From NCBI RefSeq assembly GCF_000025625.1, contig NC_013922.1, forward strand, positions 62,001 through 126,000: a stretch of 64,000 nucleotides of DNA, given 5' to 3'. Both the position numbers and the translations under genes were made by a program. The notes under the pieces are model-generated. The model saw only the letters and a list, made by a program, of their open reading frames with translations. It searched no databases and was not told the DNA's origin. Shown in pieces: positions 9,814 through 19,925 of the stretch (the first letter of the stretch is position 1; every line of letters starts with the position of its first letter). Source of the DNA: Natrialba magadii ATCC 43099 (GTDB lineage Archaea > Halobacteriota > Halobacteria > Halobacteriales > Natrialbaceae).

Positions 9814-12800
9814 TTAGCACTCGCTCCAGCCACAGGACTCGCAGGTCTTGCAGCCTTCGGAGAAGTACAGCGAGAGTGCGCCACAGGATGGACATTCCGG
9901 CGACTCGCCGGCGTCGATGAGGTCCTGCGTCGCGTCCTCGGTGTCGCGGTCGGCGACACCGGCGCCGCCGTCGGTTTCCGGCTCGCTGAACTCGGCTTCA
10001 GTATCCGCTTCGGCCGCGTCTTCGAGCGTCTGCTGGGTCGGGTAGGGTTTGTCGATCTCGTTCTCCAGGTATCGGCGCATTGCGGTGCCGATGGCGTCCG
10101 GAATCGATTGGATCTGTTCGCCCTTGTCCCAGGCAATCTTCGGCGAGCGGGTGCCACAGAGTTCGTCGACGATCTCCTCTGGGTCGACACCCGAGCGCAG
10201 CGAGGTCGAGATGACCTTCGCGAGCGCCTCGGTGAAGGAGTTCGTAAAGCCACCCGAGTGGCCGATGTTGGCGAACAGCTCGAACGGCTGGCCGGTTTCT
10301 GGGTCCTCGTTGATCGTCACGTAGACTTTGCCGTATCCGGTGTCGATGCGCTGGCTGACGCCCTGGAGTGCGTCGGGTCGTTCGCGCTTTTCGGTGAAGT
10401 CGACGTGAACCGGTTCGGCGTCGGGATCGCGGAACTGGTCTGGCTCGGAAGCGAGCGCGTCGATGTCCTCATCGAGGGCCGCCTGCACGTCCTCGCTCTC
10501 GAGGAAGGTCTCGAGTCCGCCGAAGATCTCGTCGATCTGGTCGACGAGCGCTTCTGCCGCTTCGGTTTCGTCGGCGAAGTCGGCGTTGTCCGCGCGCGTG
10601 GTGAGCACCTGCTTCGAGCGGGTGCCGTCGCGGTAGTAGGTGACGCCCTTGCCGCCGTTTTCGTAGACCCACTCGAAGACATCCTTGGCGTCCTCGAGAC
10701 TGGAGTCGTTCGGCGCGTTGACGGTCTTCGAGATGGCGGAGTCGACGCCCTTCTGGCAGGCACACTGGACTGCAGCGTGCTGTTTTGCCGAGAGGTCTGA
10801 GGTGATGACGAACAGTTCACCGATCGCGTCTGGCACCGTCGAGAGTCCTTCGACGCCCTCGAACTGGTTGGTCGCCATCTGCTCCTGGGCCTCTTCCTTG
10901 ACGGCGTCGACGTCGATGTCGTTCGCCTCGAGGGTTCGGAGGAAGTAGTCGTCGAACTCGACGAGCATCTCGTCGCCCTGGACGTCGTCGGTGACGTTCT
11001 TGTAGTAGGCGACGTTGTAGATCGGCTCACAGCCGCCAGTGGTGTTGCCGACCATGCTCGTCGTTCCAGTGGGTGCGATGGTCGTGACGTTGTGGTTCCG
11101 AATTGGGAAGCCATCCTCCCAATCGTCGGCGTCCTCTCCCGTCTGGTGTTCGAACCACTCGCGGTACTCGGTTGGGTTCGCGTACTTGGAGTCGTCCCAG
11201 TCGTTGAACGAGCCGCGCTCGGTCGCGAGTTCGTGGCTCGTCGCCTTCGCGCCGTGGTTGATGTGGGTCATCAGCTGGCGGGCGACTTCGTTCCCCTCCT
11301 CGCTACCGTAGCGGATGCCAAGCTGGATGTAGAGCTGTGCGAGCCCCATGATACCCAGGCCGATCTTGCGCATGTCGCGGACGGTCTGCTCGATATCCTC
11401 GACCGGGAAGTCGGACATCGTCACGACGTTCTCGAGGAATCGGGTACCGTAGGAAATGCGCTCGTCGAACTCCTCGTAGTCGATGGCTTCCTCGAGGAAG
11501 GCGTCGACCGCCTCGGCCTGCGAGTCGTACTCGTCCGCGTGGGCCTCGGACCAGACGCGCCAGTCGGGAGCGTCCGTATCTGCGAGCGTCGAGAGGTTGA
11601 TGTGACCGAGGTTACAGGCTTCGTTCTCCTCGAGTGGCTGTTCGCCACAGTTGTGAACAACGAATCCGTTCGCGACAAACGAATGCGTATCTGGCTCCGT
11701 CAGGTCGTAGACCGCTTCGTGCCCGTCGGATTCGACGGATTCGACGGTCACTTCGAACTGTTCACTGTACGGACCGCGGTCGTACTCCGACAGACGTTCC
11801 TCGAGCGCCTCGGTCTTGTACTCGAGCAAGAACCCGATCTCGTCAGCGAAGCGTTCGAGGTTATCCTTGACGATGACGAGTTCATGCTGTGCCTTCGTCT
11901 CGTACGCTTTCGTTCCACCGCAACCGTCAGAGAGTTCTCGAGTGCCAGCTTCCTTGCGGTTTTCGTAGACCTTGCTGGCGATACCGAAGTTGAGCAGGAG
12001 TTGCTGGACCTCGCTAAGGAGATCGGCGTCGGAACTCCACAACCGAACGGAAACGCCCTTTTCGACGTTCCCCTGAACACAGCCGTCTGCCGTGAATAGC
12101 GATTGGAGGAATCCACGAGCCATCTCTTCACTGCCCCGCATCACTGTATCGGGGACCTGAAGCTTCTCTTCGGTGAGTCCGACTTCTTCAGCGTATTCAT
12201 ACAGGCGAGTCGATCGAATCCGTTGTTCGATCGCCTGAGCGCCACGATACTCATCGTGGCGACTGATTGAGTTGACGCCGATTTCGTAGTTCGCGTTTCC
12301 GAGTGGTTCGCGAACAACTTCGTTTACGTCTTCGGCGAACGCTTCGGAAATTTCGGCATCCTCATCGTAGAAGTTCAAGACAGCACGCTCTTCGCTGTGT
12401 TTGAGGTGGCCGTCCCCGACGAGCCACCCCAGCGTCCGGCCTTGCTCAGCGGTTCCGTGCTGCCCGAACTTCCCCTTCCGGTTCTGGATATGAACCGTGT
12501 CACCAGTATCGAGGTTCTGTGCTTCGACCCACCCGTCAGCAGTCATGACGCGGTGGTCTGCCGTGAGTCGAAGCTCGTACCCTTCTTTGGTCGTGAGTTT
12601 GTAGACGTCTTTCTCACCAGTTTTGTAGACGCTACTGGCTTCTTTGATCGAATCTTCGCTAAGTCGTCCGTCAACGACGACGTCGGTGGCAACGCCCTGC
12701 TCATACAGCTCTTCGGCAGGAATGAGACCGCGTTCAGTGCTGATGAGGCTATCTCCGGTTACACAGGGGTTCGTCGCCAGGATACGGTGATCTTCGTGTT

Positions 12801-14064
12801 CCTCGGTGTCGAAGGAGTGCTCCTTGTTGACCCGTTCGAGATAGATCACGCCAGGCTCGCCGTTTTCGTGGGCGCCCTCGACGATCCGCTCCCAGATGAG
12901 TTCTGCAGGGATCGACAGCGGCTCGCCGACCTCGATGTGCTCGCCGAGGTCGTAGCGGCTGTACATCTCCTTGGTTTCCTCGGTCGCGATGTGCGGTTCC
13001 TCGGTCCGTGGGTTGGTGAAGGTGTACTCCTCGCCGTTCTGCAGCGCTTCCATGAACCCGTCAGTGACGCCGACGGAGATGTTGAAATTAGAGAGATGCC
13101 CTTCGACAGCGTTGCGAAGGTGCTTTGGAACGCGCCCGTCCTCGTCGATCAGATCACGGGCCTCCTCGAGTGCCTCGCTGAAGGACGTGTAGGTGTAGTC
13201 GTCGGGGTCGTTGAGACGGAGACAGTGGGCCAGGGAAACGTCCTTGTTCTTCGCGTGGATGAACTCGATAACGTCGGGGTGGGAGACGCGCATGATGCCC
13301 ATCTGGGCACCGCGGCGGGTGCCACCCTGGGCGATGGTCTCACAGAGCTGGTCGTACGTGCGCATGAAGGTGATCGGCCCGGAGGCGATGCCGCCTGTGG
13401 AGCCGACTGCGTCGCCGTAGGGACGCAGTTTCCAGAACCCGTAGCCGACGCCGCCGCCGGACTGGAAGACCTCTGCGGCCTTCTTGGCCGTCTCGTGGAT
13501 GTCAGAAAGGTCGTCGTCCGGAGACATGACGAAACAGGCCGAAAGCTGCTGGAGTTCGTCGCCGGCGTTCATCAGGGTCGGCGAGTTCGGCATGAACGAC
13601 AGGTTTTCCATGCCCTCGGTGAACGTGTCGGCGACGTCTTCGACGTGCTCGCGGACCTCGTCCGGCAGCTCCGGGACGACGGTGTCGTAGGTGAACTTGT
13701 TGACGTTGTGTTCCGTCAAGACCGTCTCTACATCGTCGTCTACGGTCGTTCCCTCGCCGAAGACTTCCGCGGCGAGTTCGTCGCGACGCGGGTGATCCGG
13801 CTTGAGCTGGTCCGGCGTGACGGTGATCTCGAGATCGTGCGTTTCGGCCTCGTAGACGGCTTCGGCCAGCGCGATGTTCTTGCCAACGCGGTCGAAGAGA
13901 TCTTCCTGCTCTTCGATGAGGTCGCCGTTAGCGTCCTTGCGCAGATAGCGGGCTGGCAGGATGTTGTGATAGGCGTTGTCCGTCATCCGTTCCTCGAGTG
14001 TCTCCCCCTCGGTGCGCTTGATCGGGAGGGTGAGGTCGGCCGCGGAGATGTCGTGTTCGCTCAC
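9814..14064 (-). CDS. nrdJ: adenosylcobalamin-dependent ribonucleotide reductase with intein
   Basis: 1416-aa precursor. After removal of a 372-aa intein (residues 434-805) the enzyme is 1044 aa. It reduces ribonucleotides to deoxyribonucleotides using a B12-derived radical. Visible features are the N-terminal region with SPTLMNAG and SACFVMSPDDDLSDI (redox Cys177), the finger-loop radical site TNP|CGEQ split by the intein, EACNLGHINLS, PTGTTSMVG and the C-terminal zinc ribbon CPSCG...CKTCESCGWSEC with shuttle cysteines. The catalytic Asn-Cys-Glu set (N432, C806, E808) is complete only after splicing. It is monocistronic, with a candidate operator upstream at 14187-14211. Confidence 0.95.
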   Translation of the reverse strand: MSEHDISAADLTLPIKRTEGETLEERMTDNAYHNILPARYLRKDANGDLIEEQEDLFDRVGKNIALAEAVYEAETHDLEITVTPDQLKPDHPRRDELAAEVFGEGTTVDDDVETVLTEHNVNKFTYDTVVPELPDEVREHVEDVADTFTEGMENLSFMPNSPTLMNAGDELQQLSACFVMSPDDDLSDIHETAKKAAEVFQSGGGVGYGFWKLRPYGDAVGSTGGIASGPITFMRTYDQLCETIAQGGTRRGAQMGIMRVSHPDVIEFIHAKNKDVSLAHCLRLNDPDDYTYTSFSEALEEARDLIDEDGRVPKHLRNAVEGHLSNFNISVGVTDGFMEALQNGEEYTFTNPRTEEPHIATEETKEMYSRYDLGEHIEVGEPLSIPAELIWERIVEGAHENGEPGVIYLERVNKEHSFDTEEHEDHRILATNPCVTGDSLISTERGLIPAEELYEQGVATDVVVDGRLSEDSIKEASSVYKTGEKDVYKLTTKEGYELRLTADHRVMTADGWVEAQNLDTGDTVHIQNRKGKFGQHGTAEQGRTLGWLVGDGHLKHSEERAVLNFYDEDAEISEAFAEDVNEVVREPLGNANYEIGVNSISRHDEYRGAQAIEQRIRSTRLYEYAEEVGLTEEKLQVPDTVMRGSEEMARGFLQSLFTADGCVQGNVEKGVSVRLWSSDADLLSEVQQLLLNFGIASKVYENRKEAGTRELSDGCGGTKAYETKAQHELVIVKDNLERFADEIGFLLEYKTEALEERLSEYDRGPYSEQFEVTVESVESDGHEAVYDLTEPDTHSFVANGFVVHNCGEQPLEENEACNLGHINLSTLADTDAPDWRVWSEAHADEYDSQAEAVDAFLEEAIDYEEFDERISYGTRFLENVVTMSDFPVEDIEQTVRDMRKIGLGIMGLAQLYIQLGIRYGSEEGNEVARQLMTHINHGAKATSHELATERGSFNDWDDSKYANPTEYREWFEHQTGEDADDWEDGFPIRNHNVTTIAPTGTTSMVGNTTGGCEPIYNVAYYKNVTDDVQGDEMLVEFDDYFLRTLEANDIDVDAVKEEAQEQMATNQFEGVEGLSTVPDAIGELFVITSDLSAKQHAAVQCACQKGVDSAISKTVNAPNDSSLEDAKDVFEWVYENGGKGVTYYRDGTRSKQVLTTRADNADFADETEAAEALVDQIDEIFGGLETFLESEDVQAALDEDIDALASEPDQFRDPDAEPVHVDFTEKRERPDALQGVSQRIDTGYGKVYVTINEDPETGQPFELFANIGHSGGFTNSFTEALAKVISTSLRSGVDPEEIVDELCGTRSPKIAWDKGEQIQSIPDAIGTAMRRYLENEIDKPYPTQQTLEDAAEADTEAEFSEPETDGGAGVADRDTEDATQDLIDAGESPECPSCGALSLYFSEGCKTCESCGWSEC
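11650..12765 (-). other. intein in NrdJ with LAGLIDADG-type endonuclease motifs
   Basis: The 372-residue intein starts with Cys (CVTGDSLI, block A), has the block B TxxH motif (LTADHRVM) and ends with block F/G VYDLTEPDTHSF...GFVVHN followed by Cys+1 of the host. Two dodecapeptide motifs are present: LGWLVGDGH at intein residues ~112-120 and FLQSLFTADG at ~219-228. Both keep an aspartate, so the homing endonuclease looks intact rather than decayed. The insertion point lies between TNP and CGEQ, directly before the thiyl-radical cysteine, a site under the strongest sequence constraint. Confidence 0.95.
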
Positions 14065-19165: not shown

Positions 19166-19240
19166 GGGTTGGTGGTCTAGTCTGGTTATGACACCTCCTT
19201 GACATGGAGGAGGCCGGCAGTTCAAATCTGCCCCAACCCA
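19166..19240 (+). tRNA. tRNA-Val (GAC)
   Basis: A 75-nt cloverleaf. The acceptor stem GGGTTGG pairs with CCAACCC followed by A. The D-arm is GTCT..., the anticodon stem CCTCC/GGAGG encloses TTGACAT (anticodon GAC), and the T-arm is GGCAG/CTGCC with loop TTCAAAT. No intron. Its last 21 nt are duplicated downstream at 19331-19351 and again, degenerate, at 19534-19553. Confidence 0.95.
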
Positions 19241-19553
19241 CTATTTCTGTCGCGAACAAATCCGTGAGCGACAGAATCGTCATGTTTGGCTGATTTGAAT
19301 CAGGGAGTGGAGCGAAGCGAAACGACCGTGGTTCAAATCTGCCCCAACCCATTTTTCGAGCGTCACATTTCGAGGAGCGGAGTCGTTCGAAACGGCTTCG
19401 CCGTTTCGTGATGACGAAAGACGCGGAGCGTCTTTCGAACCACGACGAGCACATCGCTCGAAAAATTGTTACGGGTAGTTTGAACCAGACAAGTCGCAGC
19501 GCTCGAGCACCGCGAGAGCGACCGTCTCGGCGTAGTTCAACTCTGCTCCAACC
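19220..19553 (+). repeat. three copies of the tRNA-Val 3' end (att-like scars)
   Basis: The tRNA 3' end GTTCAAATCTGCCCCAACCC(A) at 19220-19240 recurs exactly at 19331-19351. A third copy with two mismatches (AGTTCAACTCTGCTCCAACC) is at 19534-19553. Such repeats arise when elements with tRNA-targeting integrases insert and regenerate the tRNA end. The 90- and 182-bp segments between copies contain no integrase. They appear to be residues of excised or decayed elements. Confidence 0.75.
19245..19437. repeat. three perfect hairpins downstream of tRNA-Val
   Basis: TTCTGTCGC/GCGACAGAA (19245-19253, 19268-19276), CGAAACGG-CTTCG-CCGTTTCG (19388-19408) and CGAAAGACGC-GGA-GCGTCTTTCG (19415-19437). 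The first directly follows the tRNA and may affect its 3' processing or termination. The other two lie between att-like copies 2 and 3. Confidence 0.65.
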
Positions 19554-19925
19554 GCTGTTTCTGAACACATTCCCGACTAACACGTAGTGCGGTAGTGCCA
19601 CGAGATCCCAACCCACGGTATTCCGGGCACCGCGTACACGTTACAGATATCCCTTCTCGAACCGTCGAAGCTACCGTCTCTTCCGTCAACAAGCAACGTC
19701 CGCAGCAGTGGCTACTCGGCGTGGTTGATGGACTCGAGTACAGGTCGGGGTACAGCTCCGAGTCTCGTCCCTGCGCTCTGGATCTGTCTTTGTCTCTGCC
19801 TCACGTGATCGGGCACGTGGAGCAAGCGCTCGCCTGCAGAGAGGGAGAACAGGGTCTGGCAAGCAGTGGCCTCATAACGGCGGCGATTGTGGAGGGGATG
19901 TATGTGTATCCCGGGTCCGGGTCAG
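19554..19925. other. gene-poor stretch between tRNA-Val scars and the BCCT gene
   Basis: About 370 bp. A 138-codon plus-strand frame crosses it, but its Arg/Ser/Cys-rich, motif-free translation and its overlap with the small TM peptide argue against a gene. CGTGATCGGGCACG near 19803-19816 is a short imperfect palindrome. I see no convincing feature otherwise. Confidence 0.4.

Follow-up and report, generated by a model that had tools for sequence, protein, structure and literature searches.

Our analysis revealed that the only tRNA gene in the window (the whole 64-kb stretch of Natrialba magadii DNA examined here), tRNA-Val(GAC) as annotated by ARAGORN, is followed by an array of units in which hairpins are arranged in a fixed order with antisense and sense copies of the 3′ part of the tRNA. 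The sense copies represent attachment cores, but the spacers between them are not debris. We tentatively favour the view that the array is a series of cassettes that can fold, that is anchored on the tRNA gene and in which every cassette closes with a spare attachment core. The earlier note on this DNA had observed the repeated tRNA end correctly but missed its scale: the spacers have a fixed order that includes an antisense T-arm, and the same arrangement is common to other tRNA genes of the organism and to other haloarchaea.

The array behind tRNA-Val(GAC)

The array comprises two units of about 110 and 204 bp, each running from hairpin A through an antisense T-loop/T-arm copy (S*) and hairpin B to a sense copy of tRNA nt 53-73 (S). 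This order emerged when some 30 related loci, and after them the tRNA genes of N. magadii, were compared; one to three consecutive units are found behind such genes. The features of the window locus, all on the plus strand, are as follows.

19166..19241, + strand: tRNA-Val(GAC) gene (end as given by ARAGORN; discriminator base at 19240)
19220..19240, + strand: S core within the gene, tRNA nt 53-73, the repeated part
19244..19277, + strand: unit 1 hairpin A, stem TTCTGTCGC/GCGACAGAA
19286..19299, + strand: unit 1 S*, antisense T-loop/T-arm copy, GATTTGAA plus part of the T-stem
19300..19330, + strand: unit 1 hairpin B of the B1 family, TCAGGGAG...CGACCGTG
19331..19351, + strand: unit 1 terminal S, exact sense copy (21/21 identical)
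19352..19473, + strand: unit 2 hairpin A, outer stem TTTTTCGAGCG/CGCTCGAAAAA, with more palindromes nested within
19474..19484, + strand: unit 2 S*, antisense and degenerate, AGTTTGAA
19485..19534, + strand: unit 2 hairpin B of the B2 family, AGACAAGTCGCAGC...ACCGTCTCGGCG
19535..19555, + strand: degenerate sense S at the distal end of the array (4 mismatches in 21)

The three copies of the tRNA-Val 3′ end were thus as the earlier note had reported them, and so were the hairpins in the spacers, since unit 1 folds with a z-score of -4.8 relative to dinucleotide shuffles and the tRNA together with unit 1 with -5.5. In line with its statement that the locus lacks an integrase, no such ORF was evident by eye among the ORFs neighbouring the array. 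The S copies in the window enclose 90 and 183 bp of hairpins, no gene was evident inside the two window units (111 and 204 bp), and no two core copies bound an inserted element at this locus. In the N. magadii genome (4,443,643 bases in four contigs), the Val 21-mer occurs exactly four times, twice at tRNA-Val(GAC) and twice bounding an element at tRNA-Val(CAC), once in that gene and once 43.7 kb downstream, whereas the reversed pattern has no occurrence in these 4.44 Mb; the repeat is therefore not a chance match. Elsewhere in the window, a ribonucleotide-reductase-like ORF on the minus strand (9814-14064) contains an apparent intein (CVTGDSL...VVHNC, recognised by eye).

Cognate units at other tRNA genes and their turnover

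The copies behind tRNA genes are cognate. When the last 20 nt of each tRNA were searched with up to 3 mismatches over 450 bp, identical genes being collapsed, 24 of the 43 distinct tRNA genes of N. magadii carried their own end downstream (22 exact), while none of the 1696 non-cognate pairings gave a match and a cognate copy lay upstream of only one of the 43 genes. A genome from another family of the same order had cognate copies at 16 of 30 distinct tRNA genes (non-cognate 3/794), and another genome of the same genus, some of whose tRNA flanks contain N, at 8 of 34 (non-cognate 1/1034). A non-haloarchaeal genome of the same phylum had 2 of 29 (non-cognate 8/736), both of them complete tandem tRNA genes; these three comparisons cover 30 of 42, 30 of 46 and 30 of 54 tRNA hits, respectively. 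A tRNA-Trp gene missed by tRNA scanners also has a unit.

The core sequence differs between tRNA loci, and its limits are sharp: over 74 copies, identity is 0.95 at nt 53 and 0.92 at nt 73 but drops to 0.23 at nt 51 and to 0.50 at nt 74, and this block is the 3′ part of the tRNA that is needed to restore the gene. S* was recognised in 127 of 153 units, and the median unit length is 122.5 nt in sets restricted by construction to about 80-220 nt. Among the hairpins, the B1 family was found at 19 tRNA identities, with fixed orientation and with borders that are sharp at the T-loop.

The arrangement is spread across the haloarchaea. Using the pattern GATTTGAANNAG(15-45)GTTCAAATC, which contains T-loop sequence only, we found S*-B-S in 29 of 43 genomes of the order, from six families, and in none of 203 other genomes of the phylum, and the reversed form never occurred. 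All seven palindromes of this type in N. magadii adjoin tRNA genes. Arrays were also present in Haloferax prahovense. In a scan of named genomes, the 80 listed of 118 stretches contained at least 64 matches in 59 haloarchaeal loci, one of which, a 'Euryarchaeota archaeon' locus (L237), is counted here as haloarchaeal and left out of the 153-unit, hairpin-identity and decay sets. Among the matches listed, 59 of the 64 haloarchaeal ones lie at most 700 bp downstream of a tRNA gene on the same strand and 54 of the 64 are cognate, whereas none of the 22 in other organisms is both tRNA-linked and cognate. The earlier note had regarded a three-copy arrangement fixed across distant genera, with no inserted elements ever found, as evidence against its reading. 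The layout does recur in distant genera, but the number and content of the units vary and inserted elements exist.

The arrays change within a genus through gain, loss and replacement of entire units and of individual B hairpins. The tRNA-Val(TAC) and tRNA-Phe arrays of seven Natrialba genomes contain zero to three units, and a comparison of these arrays between related flanks gave units 1-2-3 in N. magadii and 1-4-3 in a sister species. Behind tRNA-Val(TAC), two other Natrialba genomes with 195 of 200 flank bases identical have three units and one unit, respectively, and their last units share the same A but differ in B. Hairpin A stays with its tRNA while B changes. Accordingly, among the 7641 pairs from different tRNAs that 127 units gave, 164 were at least 85% identical in hairpin B and 2 in hairpin A, although the value for B is inflated by the short B1 hairpins; within one genome, such pairs numbered 23 of 663 for B and 2 of 663 for A. 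Moreover, distal copies decay: of 48 arrays with at least two copies, 27 had a last copy that was worse than the first and 4 had a better one (p=3e-5).

Such turnover could also arise at a neutral hot spot where template switching at hairpins and homologous recombination act without any dedicated system. The alternation S-A-S*-B-S is the expected product of two template switches, the S-A-S* part of unit 2 is itself a degenerate palindrome, and the constancy of A at its tRNA with a changing B fits this explanation as well. However, the recurrence of B families at many tRNAs (19 identities in the case of B1), in a fixed orientation and with sharp borders at the T-loop, speaks against it, as do the covariation of the stems (see below) and the confinement of the order of parts to haloarchaea within the sampled phylum, and we regard it as improbable.

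Folding of the units and their relation to integrated elements

The units fold in a strand-specific manner. Pairing between S and S* at nt 54-63 was present in 82-96% of 78 units. Calculated with RNA energies, the strand in tRNA sense has the higher stability in 82 of 104 units and the lower in 21; DNA energies give 80 versus 24, in contrast to a control region without such a bias (46 versus 59 with RNA and 54 versus 52 with DNA energies); in an earlier set of units, the sense strand folded better in 44 of 50. Furthermore, among 13 distinct B1 hairpins, three base pairs had changed on both sides in 11 cells, compared to 3.3 expected from shuffles and at most 2 in slid structures.

These observations are in part what would be expected if the array were a structured RNA, i.e. 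a tRNA 3′ trailer that was amplified by tandem duplication and is under selection for a role in termination, processing or stability. The units lie downstream of tRNAs on the same strand, their sense strand folds better, their stems covary beyond the shuffled expectation, and G.T pairs slightly outnumber A.C pairs in the unit stems (73 versus 51, p=0.06), which leaves room for selection at the RNA level. Nevertheless, a trailer would leave the exact cognate S with its sharp ends at nt 53 and 73 unexplained, the presence of copies varies within the genus (24/43 versus 8/34), and DNA parameters give the same strand bias as RNA parameters. The ratio of G.T to A.C is also below that of tRNA stems (15 versus 4), a difference that is not significant (Fisher p=0.13). 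A run of T in the first bases after the tRNA was present in only 65 of 180 cases, and in 10 loci no Rfam family matched the units, with hits to tRNAs, to ribosomal-protein leaders elsewhere and to sub-threshold matches only. We therefore consider a trailer RNA unlikely. An argument that the G.T to A.C proportion is DNA-like, suggested by a first set (47 to 36, with 13 to 0 for tRNAs), was dropped in view of the p=0.13 in the larger set. Two motifs in hairpin A were likewise rejected: a kink-turn, by eye, for want of a three-base bulge, and GCGAAC..GTGAGC at the tip as a signature of tRNA flanks, which is not confined there (34 matches versus 15 for the reversed pattern). A shorter form of the tip motif occurs 6 times in the window versus 2.6 expected.

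The assignment of the repeat as an attachment-type core, proposed in the earlier note, is borne out by its sharp limits and by elements that use it. At tRNA-Val(CAC), a 43.7-kb element (G000:C1:338667-382460, L035-L037) lies between the tRNA core and a solo core; the latter has a tyrosine recombinase gene next to it and a unit behind it. This element took the tRNA's own core despite the unit behind it, and neither of its arms contains A, S* or B. The cargo near the recombinase gene is CBASS-like: Pfam identified a SMODS nucleotidyltransferase, a ThiF and JAB fusion and a SAVED protein, with a weak TIR match below the cut-off.

A second element, of 3.1 kb, is located at tRNA-Gly(TCC) (L355, G000:C1:3344600-3348400) and encodes a tyrosine recombinase, a DUF7342 protein and two small ORFs. 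It is flanked by 175-bp direct repeats (172/175 identical) extending from the anticodon loop through a whole unit, so that a unit lies inside the direct repeats of this element. Relatives of the Gly(TCC) recombinase were detected in 39 of 80 genomes, and in 28 of 30 loci taken from them a tRNA gene on the same strand lies at most 515 bases upstream. In 25 of these 28, the element's own arm follows the tRNA directly and is devoid of A, S* and B, although one of them (L376) has a degenerate core copy. In the other three, a unit is situated between the tRNA and the arm: the elements at L360 and L368 are plainly inserted at the S of the unit, and the Gly(TCC) locus is complex in that its repeats reach into the anticodon loop. 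Taken together, the three loci with an intervening unit and the 25 bare arms indicate that S copies can serve as attachment sites and that the units are not arms of this integrase family.

Further insertions and element features were noticed at several loci. In elements of this integrase family (P′ arms at L356-L385), inspection by eye showed shared direct repeats resembling GACGCCGTCTTGCGATT between the tRNA and the integrase gene, which may be binding sites of the arm type. About 41 kb from the tRNA-Glu(TTC) gene, an orphan core resembling its end is followed by an A hairpin (L352, G000:C1:740700-741400), and its T-stem does not match that of today's gene, as though the 3′ end of the gene had been exchanged by an element. 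Behind a tRNA-Val(TAC) gene, a 4.8-kb insertion ends in S*-B-S (L349, G006:C8:135900-142300); by eye, it contains an IS-transposase-like ORF and no integrase was seen. A 1.2-kb insertion with an endonuclease/phosphatase-like ORF (by eye) separates tRNA-Val(GAC) from the next core at L350/L024 (G008:C17), where a broken partial tRNA-Val precedes the B hairpin.

The earlier note had interpreted the spacers as leftovers of at least two integration/excision or decay events. In such a scenario each S would be an old attR and each spacer the remnant of an element whose body was deleted. Indeed, S coincides with the block commonly used for attachment and is a site of element integration, distal copies are decayed, and the unit within the repeats of the 3.1-kb element indicates that elements can carry units and could leave them behind. 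However, the flanks of the cores match neither the 25 of 28 P′ arms in the tested integrase family nor either end of the 43.7-kb element. Moreover, the spacer is an ordered A-S*-B module that recurs behind tRNAs in six families of the order, in the same arrangement and at comparable size across many genera, an outcome that random deletion would not produce. Viral contigs and plasmids also provided no source: no S*-B-S pattern on 30 viral contigs was near a tRNA or contained a B family, B3 had no match on viral contigs, two single-query blastn searches with the Val unit and a 44-nt B1 sequence found nothing among plasmids and phages, and no viral relative of a 369-aa integrase was found. Matches to B1 on two viral contigs and to the Val 21-mer on one were judged on inspection to be due to chance. 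The interpretation of the spacers as leftovers is thus unsupported, and we give footprints of integrated elements little weight as an explanation of the arrays.

Possible workings of the arrays and related systems

If the arrays are sets of cassettes, each cassette would be a pair of hairpins (A, then S*-B-S) that closes with a full copy of the core, nt 53-73. Tyrosine recombinases recognising the tRNA could then recombine at any proximal core, since the proximal cores are intact, and cassettes between two S copies could be lost, gained or exchanged as a result. Exchange might proceed by site-specific or homologous recombination at S and, in the case of B, at the T-loop of S*/S. Incoming elements could insert at a distal S, so that the tRNA and its trailer stay untouched. 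S* would allow a single strand in tRNA orientation to fold and thereby make S double-stranded, as in integron attC sites. New or retained intact copies would be next to the tRNA, with old ones decaying at the far end. We infer that a recombinase moves the units and that they fold as single-stranded DNA; a mechanism for cassettes to take on the S and S* of a different tRNA, and a benefit of spare cores to the host, would also belong to this proposal. Several points weigh against it. Our searches found no unit-specific recombinase, circular unit or free unit, the units (median 122.5 nt) are short for a double-stranded circle, and short homology tracts together with ordinary recombination could explain much of the turnover. 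Furthermore, since 25 of 28 elements of the tested family are at the tRNA itself, spare cores do not reliably divert integration. A more doubtful step, beyond cassettes as such, is that the arrays amount to a novel type of recombination system, with every tRNA gene serving as an integration platform in its own right and with palindromic hairpin cassettes that copy the local core in both orientations, fold single-stranded, travel among tRNA loci and supply spare cores.

The arrays have features in common with several known systems. A CRISPR array consists of a constant repeat and unique spacers and is accompanied by cas genes. The tRNA arrays resemble it in their repeat-spacer layout behind a leader-like anchor and in the degenerate distal repeat, but their repeat differs from tRNA to tRNA and their spacers are hairpins from shared families. 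The R boxes of integron attC sites read GTTRRRY and RYYYAAC. By eye, the start of S, GTTCAAA, does not fit GTTRRRY. With archaeal integrons and their attC sites, as described in the available part of PMC9668308, the arrays share tandem cassettes between cores, a strand-specific fold and a core that ends a palindrome with a variable hairpin. The match is one of anatomy, not of recombination. The array units show no gene of their own, their core is the local tRNA end, and no IntI was identified in Pfam/PHROG scans of two element integrases; the words tRNA and Halobacter are absent from the text of that paper. Short palindromic non-coding elements are also known from Haloquadratum as REP-, PATE- and MITE-type repeats (PMC3119063, in part), but our units lie behind tRNA genes with ends copying the local tRNA, a type that does not appear in the accessible part of the table of mobile elements in that paper. 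The closest parallel in the core itself is with tRNA-located attachment sites (PMC8371274, in the portion available), where the repeat also extends from the T-loop to the tRNA end, and tyrosine-recombinase elements use the same core in N. magadii and its family. Unlike such sites, the arrays have no element between their copies but ordered hairpins and an antisense copy, and they occur behind about half of the distinct tRNA genes of N. magadii. As far as their available parts extend, PMC8371274, PMC3119063, PMC3403918, PMC6471424, PMC9668308, PMC11078007, PMC9897764 and PMC6972569 describe element-bounded tRNA fragments, integrons, islands and other repeats rather than these units, and the accessible text of PMC10599561 is relevant only to pleolipovirus integrases. 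The units are undescribed in the open-licence literature searched; with subscription papers outside this scope, the term new is provisional.

Overall, many tRNA genes in one archaeal class are followed by folded cassettes that carry spare cores cognate to the tRNA and that differ among members of a genus. Even under duller readings, the arrays can mislead searches for attachment sites and integrated elements in haloarchaeal genomes, since exact repeats of tRNA ends occur without an element. Mobile DNA enters prokaryotic genomes mainly at tRNA genes, and how the host tolerates this is an open question. If the arrays work as we propose, host buffering of integration into essential tRNA genes would become testable, and haloarchaeal tRNA genes would provide a further cassette platform beside integrons and CRISPR arrays.
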